A stretch of 37,656 nucleotides of DNA from positions 2,776,539 through 2,814,194 of the forward strand of contig NZ_CM002285.1 in assembly GCF_000497445.1 (NCBI RefSeq), read 5' to 3'. The notes beneath the pieces are model-generated. The model had not been told where the DNA came from, did not search any database, and saw nothing but the letters and a program-made list of their open reading frames with translations. The position numbers were made by a program, and so were the translations under genes. The stretch's first letter is position 1, and every line of letters starts with the position of its first letter. Source of the DNA: Streptomyces roseochromogenus subsp. oscitans DS 12.976. GTDB taxonomy: Bacteria > Actinomycetota > Actinomycetes > Streptomycetales > Streptomycetaceae. Below, one piece after another: positions 18,006-21,071 of the stretch.

Positions 18006-19130
18006 TTACACAGCCGCGGCCGTCGCGCGCGTGGTCGTCGCGATCGTCGCCGAGCCCACCACGCGCGTGCCGTCGTACAGGACGATCGCCTGGCCGGGCG
18101 CCACGCCACGGACCGGCTCGGTGAAGCTGACGCGCAGCTCGCCGTCGGCCGGTTCCGCGGTGACCTCGGTCTCGCCGCCGTGGGCGCGCAGCTGGGCGGT
18201 GTAGGTGCCGGGGCCGGTGGGGGCGGTGCCGCACCAGCGGGGCTTGATCGCCGTCAGCCCGGTCACGTCCAGGGCGGTGGCCGGGCCGACGGTCACGGTG
18301 TTCGTCACCGGCGAGATGTCGAGGACGTAGCGCGGCTTGCCGTCGGGGGCCGGGGTGCCGAGGCGCAGGCCCTTGCGCTGGCCGATCGTGAAGCCGTACG
18401 CGCCCTCGTGCGTGCCCAGCTTGGCGCCGGACTCGTCGACGATGTCGCCCTCGGCCTTGCCGAGCCGCTGGGCGAGGAAGCCCTGGGTGTCGCCGTCGGC
18501 GATGAAGCAGATGTCGTGCGAGTCGGGCTTCTTGGCGACGGCCAGGCCCCGGCGCTCGGCCTCGGCGCGGATCTCCTCCTTGGTGGTGACCGTGTCGCCG
18601 AGCGGGAACATCGCGTGGGCGAGCTGCTTGTCGTCGAGCACACCGAGCACGTACGACTGGTCCTTCGCCATGTCGGAGGCGCGGTGCAGCTCGCGCACGC
18701 CGTCCTCGCGCACGATCACCTTGGCGTAGTGACCGGTGCAGACCGCGTCGAAGCCCAGCGCCAGCGCCTTGTCGAGCAGCGCGGCGAACTTGATCTTCTC
18801 GTTGCAGCGCAGGCACGGGTTGGGGGTGCGGCCCGCCTCGTACTCGGCGACGAAGTCCTCGACCACGTCCTCGCGGAAGCGGTCGGCGAGGTCCCAGACG
18901 TAGAACGGGATGCCGATGACGTCGGCCGCGCGGCGGGCGTCACGGGAGTCCTCGATGGTGCAACAGCCCCGCGCGCCGGTCCGGAAGGACTGCGGGTTCG
19001 CGGAGAGCGCGAGGTGGACACCGGTGACGTCATGGCCGGCTTCCGCGGCGCGCGCGGCGGCGACGGCGGAGTCGACTCCACCGGACATGGCGGCGAGGAC
19101 GCGGAGGGGGCGCTGCGGGGTCTCAGTCAT
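18006..19130 (-). CDS. mnmA: tRNA-specific 2-thiouridylase
   Basis: A 374-aa enzyme that adenylates U34 and inserts sulfur to form s2U in Lys, Glu and Gln tRNAs. The PP-loop SGGVDS is at 16-21. Catalytic cysteines are C106 (NPCLRCN, with a second Cys at 109) and C208 (DSHDICFI). The C-terminal region carries the GQRKGLRLG and beta-barrel segments. The ATG at 19130 has GGAAGGG upstream. Sulfur comes as persulfide from a cysteine desulfurase, encoded upstream on the same strand across a 404-bp gap. Confidence 0.96.
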
Positions 19131-19188
19131 AGCCCTTCCAGGGTACGGGCCCCGCGACGCGGCTCCGAAAAAATCAAGGCCGTACCTC

Positions 19189-19216
19189 TTGCGCACGATA
19201 GGTACCGATTTACCCT
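19189..19216 (+). promoter_or_regulatory. Candidate promoter reading toward the TPP element
   Basis: On the plus strand TTGCGC (19189-19194), a 16-bp spacer and TACCCT (19211-19216) give a plausible sigma-HrdB-type promoter with a start near 19223, about 95 bases before the riboswitch core. The -35 is a moderate match only. Confidence 0.35.
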
Positions 19217-19310
19217 GGAATTAGACCTGCGAGACGAGTGAGGGAGTTCAAGCGGAGTAGCCGACTTCAGCGAGAGATGCAGTATCTCCCCTAGTGAGAG
19301 GTAGACGATC

Positions 19311-19420
19311 TCCGCTGGTGCCGACGTCGACGCTCGGGCTGAGAGGCTGGAAGGTCGCAAGGACTGGACCGGAAGGCGACCCCCATTACCTGATCCGGAC
19401 AATACCGGCGAAGGGAACCC
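19311..19420 (+). ncRNA. TPP riboswitch-like element without a downstream gene
   Basis: The plus strand at 19388-19416 contains ACCTGATCCGGACAATACC followed by GGCGAAGGGA, the highly conserved P4/P5 and loop region of thiamine-pyrophosphate (THI) riboswitches. Upstream are the matching CTGAGA box (19339-19344), a CCGA/TCGG stem before it (P3 position), GGTGC (19317-19321) and an ACCC (19379-19382) placed five bases before ACCTGAT as in known examples. An extra stem GGTCGC/GCGACC (19353-19358 with 19376-19381) sits between CTGAGA and the 3' half. P2 is short (three pairs) and P1 is not obvious. A plus-strand terminator follows, but the flanking genes mnmA and nifS both lie on the minus strand. 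Confidence 0.75.
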
Positions 19421-19442
19421 GCCTCGTAGGTCGCCTCACGTC

Positions 19443-19476
19443 GCGGCTGTCGCTTTGCGCCTCAGCCGCCCTTTTA
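19443..19476 (+). terminator. Intrinsic terminator after the TPP element
   Basis: GCGGCTG (19443-19449) pairs with CAGCCGC (19463-19469), followed by CC and TTTTAT, a U tract that is unusually good for this GC-rich genome. The hairpin plus T-run is oriented to stop plus-strand transcripts 30-60 bases after the aptamer, as in a riboswitch expression platform. The hairpin may also serve the minus-strand nifS transcript. Confidence 0.6.
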
Positions 19477-19479
19477 TGC

Positions 19480-19532
19480 CCAGCTGCCTCTGTTCGGCCA
19501 GCTGCCCCTGTTTGGCCAGCTGCCTCTTTCCG
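19480..19532. repeat. Three imperfect 18-bp tandem repeats
   Basis: Units start at 19480, 19498 and 19516 and share CCAGCTGCC(T/C)CTGTT(C/T)GG. They fill the space between the terminator and the nifS stop codon. Confidence 0.7.
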
Positions 19533-19534
19533 TC

Positions 19535-20704
19535 TCAACTCAGGCCCGCGGCGCGCGCCCTTTCCACCGCCGGGCCGATCGCCTTCGCCACCGCTTCCAC
19601 GTCCGCCTCGGTGGACGTGTGGCCGAGAGAGAAGCGCAGGGTGCCGCGAGCCAGGTCCGGGTCGGTGCCGGTGGCGAGCAGCACATGGCTGGGCTGGGCG
19701 ACACCCGCGGTACAGGCGGAGCCGGTCGAGCACTCGATGCCCTGGGCGTCCAGCAGGAGCAGCAGGGAGTCGCCCTCGCAGCCGGGGAAGGTGAAGTGCG
19801 CGTTGGCCGGGAGGCGGCCCTCGGGGGCCGGGTCGCCGCCGAGGATGGCGTCCGGGACGGCACCGCGGACGGCCGCGATCAGCTGGTCGCGCAGGGCGCC
19901 GATCTCGCGGGCGAACCATGTGCGCCGCTCGGTGGCGAGCCGGCCCGCGACGGCGAAGGAGGCGATGGCGGGGACGTCGAGGGTGCCGGAGCGGACATGC
20001 CGCTCCTGGCCGCCGCCGTGCAGGACGGGTACGGGCGTGTGGTCGCGGCCGAGCAGCAGCGCGCCGATGCCGTACGGGCCGCCGATCTTGTGGCCGGAGA
20101 CGGTCATCGCGGCGAGGCCCGAGGCGGCGAAGTCGACCGGGACCTGGCCGAGGGCCTGGACCGCGTCGGCGTGCATCGGGATACCGAACTCGGCGGCCAC
20201 GTCGGCGAGTTCACGGACCGGCAGGATGGTGCCGATCTCGTTGTTGGCCCACATCACGGTGACCAGGGCGACGTCGTCGGGGTTGCGGGAGATCGCCTCG
20301 CGCAGGGCCTCGGGGTGGACCCGGCCGTAGGAGTCGACCGGGAGGTACTCGACCGTGGCGCCCTCGTGTTCACCGAGCCAGTGGACCGCGTCCAGGACCG
20401 CGTGGTGCTCGACGGGGCTGGCCAGGACGCGGGTGCGGGCCGGGTCGGCGTCGCGACGGGACCAGTACAGGCCCTTGACGGCGAGGTTGTCGGCCTCGGT
20501 GCCGCCCGAGGTGAAGACGACCTCGCTGGGGCGGGCGCCGAGCGCTTCCGCGAGCGTTTCGCGGGATTCCTCGACCGTGCGGCGTGCCTGGCGGCCGGAT
20601 GCGTGGAGGGAGGAGGCGTTGCCCGTGATGCTCAGCTGGGCGATCAGAGCCTCAGCCGCCTCCGGGAGCATGGGGGTTGTCGCGGCGTGGTCGAGGTAAG
20701 CCAT
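19535..20704 (-). CDS. Cysteine desulfurase (IscS/NifS-like, class V aminotransferase)
   Basis: A 389-aa PLP enzyme converting cysteine to alanine and enzyme persulfide, feeding tRNA thiolation and possibly Fe-S or thiamine thiazole synthesis. Seen: YLDHAATTP start, [10 protein letters not shown] (cofactor phosphate), [10 protein letters not shown]178/D180 region ([10 protein letters not shown]), PLP lysine K206 (VSGHKIGGP) and the mobile-loop catalytic C331 (STGSAC). The ATG is at 20704 with no ribosome site, but a TAGAAT hexamer (20714-20719) lies nine bases upstream, suggesting a very short or absent leader. A role as the sulfur donor for MnmA is inferred from position. Confidence 0.95.
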
Positions 20705-20857: not shown

Positions 20858-20874
20858 GACTGCCCACGGCGGTG

Positions 20875-21071
20875 GCGGTTCGGCTGCCCTACGGCAGTAG
20901 CGGTTGGCTGCCCCACGGCGGGAGCCGTTCGACTACCCCACGGCGGGAGCGGTTGGCTGCCCCACGGCGGAAGCCGTTCGACTACCCCACGGCAGGAGCG
21001 GTTGGCTGCCCCACGGCGGAAGCCGTTCGACTACCCCACGGCAGGAGCGGTTCGGCTGCTCCCCGGTGGGG
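20875..21071. repeat. Eight 24-25 bp tandem repeats in two alternating forms
   Basis: Unit starts: 20875, 20900, 20924, 20949, 20973, 20998, 21022 and 21047. Form A is GCGGTTGGCTGCCCCACGGC plus GGRA; form B is GCCGTTCGACTACCCCACGGC plus RGGA. They alternate to give a 49-bp higher-order unit, with divergent outer copies. Each B unit carries an internal GCCGT...ACGGC inverted repeat. This, with the hairpin at 20841, occupies most of the 437-bp gene-free stretch between the cysteine desulfurase start and the DUF4190 stop. Confidence 0.9.

Follow-up and report, generated by a model that had tools for sequence, protein, structure and literature searches.

A TPP-type aptamer RNA with an extended P3 arm in Streptomyces: a candidate stand-alone small RNA

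What is a TPP aptamer core doing between two genes, neither of which it faces? The question is raised by a 37,656-nucleotide stretch of the Streptomyces roseochromogenus subsp. oscitans DS 12.976 genome (the window), in which such a core sits on the plus strand between mnmA and a cysteine desulfurase gene, both on the minus strand, with no plus-strand gene ahead of it. The orphan position and the core had been noted in a preliminary description, and both observations held. The two neighbors were identified by protein models, and CTGAGA, ACCTGATCCGG, and CCGGCGAAGGGA were located within a match to the TPP riboswitch family RF00059 at 19310-19433 on the plus strand (30.0 bits, E = 4.8e-4; cmscan with open thresholds, 461 bases against 4227 families).

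This score lies below the RF00059 gathering score of 54.3 bits, and a scan of the whole window against Rfam at gathering thresholds returned no matches. The preliminary description had set a sub-threshold score against its own reading; the score is indeed sub-threshold, but the shortfall is explained by a long arm at P3, because of which the Rfam alignment places P3 wrongly in the window element. Two better-scoring members of the same group, L095 (46 bits) and L345 (41 bits), likewise fell below the cut-off, so that the gathering score was missed by all three members scanned. Besides TPP, no Rfam family was convincing on the window element, L095, or L345 (cmscan).

Extent and architecture of the element

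The full element spans 19224-19432 on the plus strand and is closed by P1, with an arm of ∼80 nt within P3 (Table 1). In an alignment of the loci of relatives, the conserved block begins near 19224 and its two ends pair with one another, the consensus CCTACGAGAC with GTCTCGTAGG. The extent originally proposed, 19311..19476, halves the element, as the 5' strands of P1, P2, and P3 all start upstream of 19311. P1 had been called not obvious and P2 short because that search looked too far 3'; within the full element P1 is nearly completely paired and P2 is intact. The P1-P2-P3-P4-P5 layout of the TPP riboswitch is thereby found in the window together with CTGAGA, which we take to be the pyrimidine-pocket motif of the TPP aptamer, and the P4/P5 core, presumably its diphosphate-pocket side. 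TPP riboswitches usually have a small loop at the P3 position.

Table 1. Coordinates of the element and its surroundings in the window. Fractions are numbers of elements.
Feature	Position	Strand	Observation
mnmA (tRNA 2-thiouridine(34) synthase)	18006..19130	-	NF001138, 417.7 bits, cut-off 284
A-tract AAAAAATC	19168..19175	+	Upstream of promoter, ∼50 nt before P1; stretch common to different loci starts here
-10 box TACCCT (TANNNT)	19211..19216	+	13 nt ahead of P1
P1, 5' strand	19224..19236	+	12/13 positions pair with 19420-19432; covariation
GAGYGAGGGAG, conserved, P1-P3 interval	19236..19246	+	70/76; contains 5' strand of P2
P2	19242-19244 with 19382-19384	+	Alignment and window positions
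Extended P3 arm	19245..19340	+	∼80 nt replacing usual P3 loop
P3 closing helix	19245-19254 with 19331-19340
P3-arm internal-loop motif GAGTAGCCGAC, 5' side	19255..19265	+	Exact in 52/76
P3-arm internal-loop motif GCCGACGTCGAC, 3' side	19320..19331	+	GCCGACNNCGAC in 60/76
CTGAGA	19339..19344	+	68/76
P3a-like hairpin	19346..19377	+	Length variable (alignment)
P4/P5 arm	19388..19416	+	ACCTGATCCGG at 19388-19398, exact in 58/76; CCGGCGAAGGGA at 19405-19416; CCGGCGNAGGGA in 62/76; full core 100/117
P1, 3' strand	19420..19432	+	In most relatives T-rich stretch next (likely RNA end)
Extra hairpin GCGGCTG...CAGCCGC + TTTT	19443..19475	+	Sequence; appears in window fold too
Cysteine desulfurase, NifS/IscS-like	19535..20704	-	Convergent with element; best model NifS, 381.2 bits, below its equivalog cut-off of 530.75

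This architecture is shared by 117 elements, which speaks against a chance match, and its pairing is supported by covariation computed from two alignments. In 77 rows (76 elements and the canonical leader L170, fitted to covariance model R1), 34 of 54 pairs have changed on both sides and 96.4% of the cells are paired, a result matched by none of 500 shuffles. In a MAFFT alignment of 42 diverse members, made without fitting to the model, 17 of 36 pairs have changed on both sides (7 of 12 in P1) and 97.6% of the cells are paired, again with 0/500 shuffles, the structure being derived from that same alignment, which favors it over slid controls. CTGAGAGG does not vary among these 42 members, and the P4/P5 core hardly does. 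The folding energy of the window copy, taken as a single sequence, is ordinary (z = 0.08 and -0.50). A short peptide encoded within the RNA was considered and rejected, as no conserved reading frame was seen by eye and the length changes are not multiples of three.

The hairpin and T-run that the preliminary description had placed downstream are present in the sequence at 19443-19475 and in the fold, but are absent from the list produced by a terminator scan of the window. They are likely a local terminator ahead of the cysteine desulfurase gene, a similar sequence being found only in L004, the nearest relative (alignment, by eye). Between this hairpin and the 3' end of the desulfurase gene lies a tandem 18-bp unit, CCAGCTGCCTCTGTTCGG (19480-19527, 2.7 copies), and a tandem 49-bp unit occupies 20863-21066, from the desulfurase gene to the next minus-strand ORF (4.1 copies, 91% matches).

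Transcription unit, neighbors, and distribution

A promoter had also been suspected upstream of the core. An E. coli-type sigma-70 scan found none in the window, but a TANNNT box precedes P1 there and in nearly all relatives: it lies 11-13 nt ahead of P1 in 74/76 elements, as compared with 1/2604 at shifted control places, and 10-14 nt ahead in 112/117. The -10 motif mapped in S. avermitilis is likewise TANNNT (PMC8780764). P1 itself pairs at 10/10 positions in 115/117 elements and in 14/2288 at shifted places, each count being the best over a few offsets for elements and controls alike. On its 3' side, T makes up a fraction of 0.40 over the 10 nt that follow P1 and 0.13-0.20 beyond. In a profile anchored on the model ends, similarity between different loci is at background far upstream, rises at about -62 to -56 (the A-tract) and again from -20, and stops ∼12-18 nt 3' of P1; a majority A-run at about -56 to -52 occurs in all three locus groups and is visible in most alignment rows. 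These limits indicate that the unit shared between loci comprises the promoter, the RNA, and the T-rich end. Given the box before P1 and the conservation of P1, the RNA should start and end with P1 and form an independent transcription unit, with a 5' end predicted at or just before 19224. As far as sequence goes, the element has a predicted promoter of its own and a predicted 3' end apart from any coding gene, features by which a trans-acting riboswitch sRNA was judged.

No neighbor is constant. By reading, 46 of the 76 elements lie near a group of aldehyde dehydrogenase, ferredoxin, TetR, and glycosyltransferase genes, 9 lie in the mnmA-nifS location, and 21 elsewhere, 6 of the latter before a same-strand DUF2867 gene and 15 in other places; Pfam confirms the ferredoxin (Fer4_13), TetR (TetR_N, TetR_C_20), and DUF2867 assignments. 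The next downstream ORFs of the 117 elements fall into 48 clusters, many of them short, doubtful ORFs, with one element left without a call. No thiamine gene was recognized among the 46 clusters other than TetR and nifS (by eye, five being Pfam-scanned). The position of a thiamine-gene leader is therefore not found, either in the window, where both neighbors are on the minus strand, or downstream of the element in relatives. The next gene was called convergent in 83/117 and same-strand in 33, counts that are indicative only because the ORF caller is rough; applied to canonical TPP leaders, it called 6/18 convergent and left 2/20 without a call. A same-strand gene does follow closely at some loci, and a local cis role is possible there. 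In class C (L146, L149-L153), six elements stand shortly before a same-strand DUF2867 gene, five of them with an altered P5, and a switch back to a cis role is possible.

On a tree of the 5' part of the RNA, location requires at least 17 changes among 16 states. On the same tree, the mnmA-nifS position takes 2-3 changes (L105, L109, and L110 versus L106, L118, L124, L127, L129, and the window), so that the element may have entered this gap on more than one occasion. The preliminary description had suggested a comparison of this gap across Streptomyces: among 30 mnmA-nifS loci in relatives the element is present in 3, and many of the others read as the end of an amidase gene (by eye). Among 30 TetR loci examined, the element is close by in 18 and absent in 12, and the TetR locus of the source genome has lost its ferredoxin gene and carries no element. 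One of the 12 loci without an element, L291 in genome G067, has a P5-core-like stretch upstream of the 3' end of TetR, judged by eye to be a probable remnant after deletion; element losses therefore do happen.

Within the genus, a blastn search with 19280-19480 gave matches in 67 of 199 Streptomyces genomes, and among 30 element loci retrieved a cysteine desulfurase adjoins 9 and MnmA 7 (tblastn). Model R1, built from 30 sequences, detected one long element in each of 69 of the 199, the source genome included, at 69.5-213.2 bits, with a gap from there down to 46.4 bits, where the canonical TPP leaders start (count from the listing). The other 130 genomes gave no long element in this search, and the element is accordingly dispensable. 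Across the bacterial family, it was found in 61 of 249 genomes and 8 of 17 genera at E ≤ 1e-14, i.e. in seven genera besides Streptomyces, with three copies in one genome and two in another; the elements analyzed here leave out 11 Streptomyces elements newly found by this search. Genome G652 holds three copies of the RNA (L347, L348, and the divergent L349) in ∼80 kb near one end of a 7.8-Mb contig. A second, very short model match at L346:6462-6501 (19.8 bits), ∼2.3 kb from a full element, is perhaps a collapsed copy holding the closing stem only. Outside the family, in a class-wide sample of 394 genomes, the only clear element was that of G429 (121.5 bits with R1, 142.1 bits with R2), the next best R2 score being 62.4 bits; these covariance searches were run with the stricter filters of Infernal, through which weak members may escape. 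A pattern scan of named genomes gave at least 120 stretches; among the matches listed, 80/80 are titled Streptomyces, and R1 gives a score for every one of them, including four that are cut by the end of the locus. The element of S. griseofuscus DSM 40191 (L228), a non-pathogenic carrier, scores 193.0 bits. An origin in phages or plasmids was rejected, as the 281-base query L095 matched 0 of 50,697 phage records and 1 of 72,556 plasmid records, the latter an Embleya replicon of 5.7 Mb.

Loss of the sensor arm and the proposed role of the RNA

In eight of the 76 elements (L154, L155, L156, L157, L159, L161, L162, and L169) the P4/P5 arm and an intact CTGAGA are missing, while the TANNNT box, P1 (10/10), and the P3 arm are retained. 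Aligned with one another, these eight pair in 313/327 cells, with 8 of 43 pairs changed on both sides, a figure that carries no shuffle control. A scan of the aptamer-less L161 against Rfam gave radC alone, at E = 1.2. Loss of P4/P5 requires at least three changes on the tree made from the 5' part of the element (76 rows; good support for 26 of 73 inner branches), and the aptamer-less rows have since diverged, with end branches of up to 0.5, while keeping the same parts. The full TPP core is found in 100 of the 117 elements; the 17 that fall short of it are these eight and nine with an altered core, so that some members may not sense TPP. The converse was seen in members outside the main group, with the aptamer kept and the GCCGAC motifs of the P3 arm replaced.

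The explanation that appears probable, and the best reading among those the preliminary description had listed, is that the element is a stand-alone TPP-sensing small RNA, an autonomous gene that would act in trans through its P3 arm. The first part of this reading, an autonomous RNA gene carrying a TPP-type aptamer, is much firmer than the action in trans. From a promoter of the usual Streptomyces type, transcription would begin with the first P1 base and yield a molecule of ∼185-215 nt with two arms, the extended P3 and the TPP-sensing P4/P5, closed by P1, and P1 followed by the T-rich stretch would end transcription. TPP bridges the P2-P3 and P4-P5 arms of its aptamer, bringing them side by side. 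Bound TPP could thus clamp the two arms of this RNA, and the clamping may alter how the conserved P3 arm meets a putative partner in trans, either an mRNA or a protein. The P3 arm is the candidate effector since it persists in elements that no longer have the sensor arm. A broader reading is put forward more tentatively: the RNA may be a metabolite-sensing gene of a new type, a two-armed autonomous sRNA, spread over a bacterial family, whose promoter, RNA, and terminator move together from one genome position to another. In this RNA the TPP aptamer would be a detachable regulatory arm and the effector arm would have grown inside the aptamer's own P3, such that in some lineages the sensor has gone and the effector RNA stays.

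Two other accounts also take the RNA to be self-contained. The TPP-like fold could now be a mere scaffold, or bind something other than TPP, as would suit the eight elements without a P4/P5 arm, the nine more with an altered core, and the failure to recognize any thiamine gene adjoining the element; retention of the full core in the large majority of elements, together with the invariant CTGAGAGG and near-invariant P4/P5 core of the diverse members, makes this unlikely. A TPP buffer, an abundant RNA merely holding TPP, would likewise be self-contained, with an aptamer and without a neighbor, but it leaves unexplained both the conserved P3 motif and the survival of that motif after P4/P5 loss, and is considered extremely improbable.

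The remaining explanations tie the element to a gene. The preliminary description had proposed a riboswitch-controlled antisense RNA, in which low TPP would let transcription run on into the convergent gene (in the window, the cysteine desulfurase) and silence it. In its favor, a nearby convergent gene follows the element both in the window and at the TetR-group loci, most next genes were called convergent, and AspocR of Listeria offers a precedent (PMC8079631). Yet the convergent gene is not constant, the caller also assigns convergent genes to a third of the canonical leaders, and in the window the hairpin and T-run separate the element from the desulfurase gene; antisense control of cysteine desulfurase is not a general role because the neighbors differ, and the proposal as a whole is very unlikely. 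Still less can be said for a product processed out of the 3' end of the mRNA of the upstream gene, or for a terminator structure belonging to that mRNA. Many TetR-group loci do have a same-strand ferredoxin gene ending ∼50-110 nt before the element, but nearly every element has its own box before P1, the upstream genes and their strands vary, and the upstream gene in the window is divergent, which renders this account highly improbable. The other alternative raised at the outset, a relic of the riboswitch of a lost thiamine gene or a decaying element, fits the sub-threshold Rfam score and the probable remnant in G067, which attests to losses. Against it stand an intact P1 and P2, the family-wide covariation, the retained box, and the lack of a recognized thiamine gene beside any of the 117; pairs and promoter are still constrained, so a decayed relic was rejected, and the relic account in general deserves next to no credence.

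Relation to known riboswitch RNAs

Compared with the TPP riboswitch (THI element, RF00059), the stand-alone RNA proposed here shares CTGAGA, the P4/P5 core, and the order of helices, and P3a is optional in both (PMC2258182). It differs in its scores, 30-46 bits for the three members scanned where the cut-off is 54.3, in its long P3 arm, in having no recognized thiamine gene downstream, and in that the RNA would start at P1. As the gathering score was not reached and a leader position was not found, the element was not filed as an RF00059 TPP riboswitch; from its sequence, it would rather function as a free sRNA that contains a riboswitch aptamer. Rli55, SreA, and AspocR of Listeria are precedents for such an arrangement (PMC8079631). 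As in AspocR, a B12 riboswitch antisense RNA, an aptamer with its own promoter lies opposite a gene, but here the opposed gene varies between lineages, and there is no constant target. Rli55, a protein-sequestering sRNA with a B12 riboswitch, resembles the present RNA in carrying a metabolite aptamer in an RNA that acts in trans, as is proposed here; its effector, the ANTAR hairpins, lies 3' of the aptamer, whereas the putative effector here is inside the aptamer's P3 arm, with P1 closing the whole RNA. The SAM riboswitches SreA and SreB, which have trans activity, are alike in that a riboswitch RNA would serve as a trans regulator, but they lead real operons, whereas the present RNA leads no constant gene. 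The Clostridium S-box antisense RNA, which belongs to the antisense class in PMC2258182, is likewise a riboswitch that is not upstream of its gene; there, in contrast, the neighbor is a related metabolic operon.

No account of this RNA was found in the literature searched, subscription papers and supplements lying outside the search. Barrick and Breaker (2007) noted a handful of aptamers that are not upstream of related genes and left open whether these work by way of trans RNAs or have only recently become orphans (PMC2258182). For the orphan aptamer described here, the extent is defined, the distribution is family-wide, a promoter can be inferred, and natural variants lack the sensor, which makes that question testable, and in a genus used for antibiotic production. 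If the proposed reading is correct, stand-alone riboswitches can escape family models that are tuned to those in leaders.

The source genome (9.78 Mb, two contigs) contains two stronger RF00059 matches, of 63.3 bits (above the cut-off) and 49.6 bits (below it), which by reading lie upstream of a ThiO-like gene and of a thiamine ABC transporter. A published list for S. lividans places TPP riboswitches at a thiG operon and at an operon for thiamine transport (PMC8079986). The thiC leader of the source genome (L033:923-1100) is a TPP aptamer with a long P3a insertion and scores 40.6 bits, below the Rfam cut-off.
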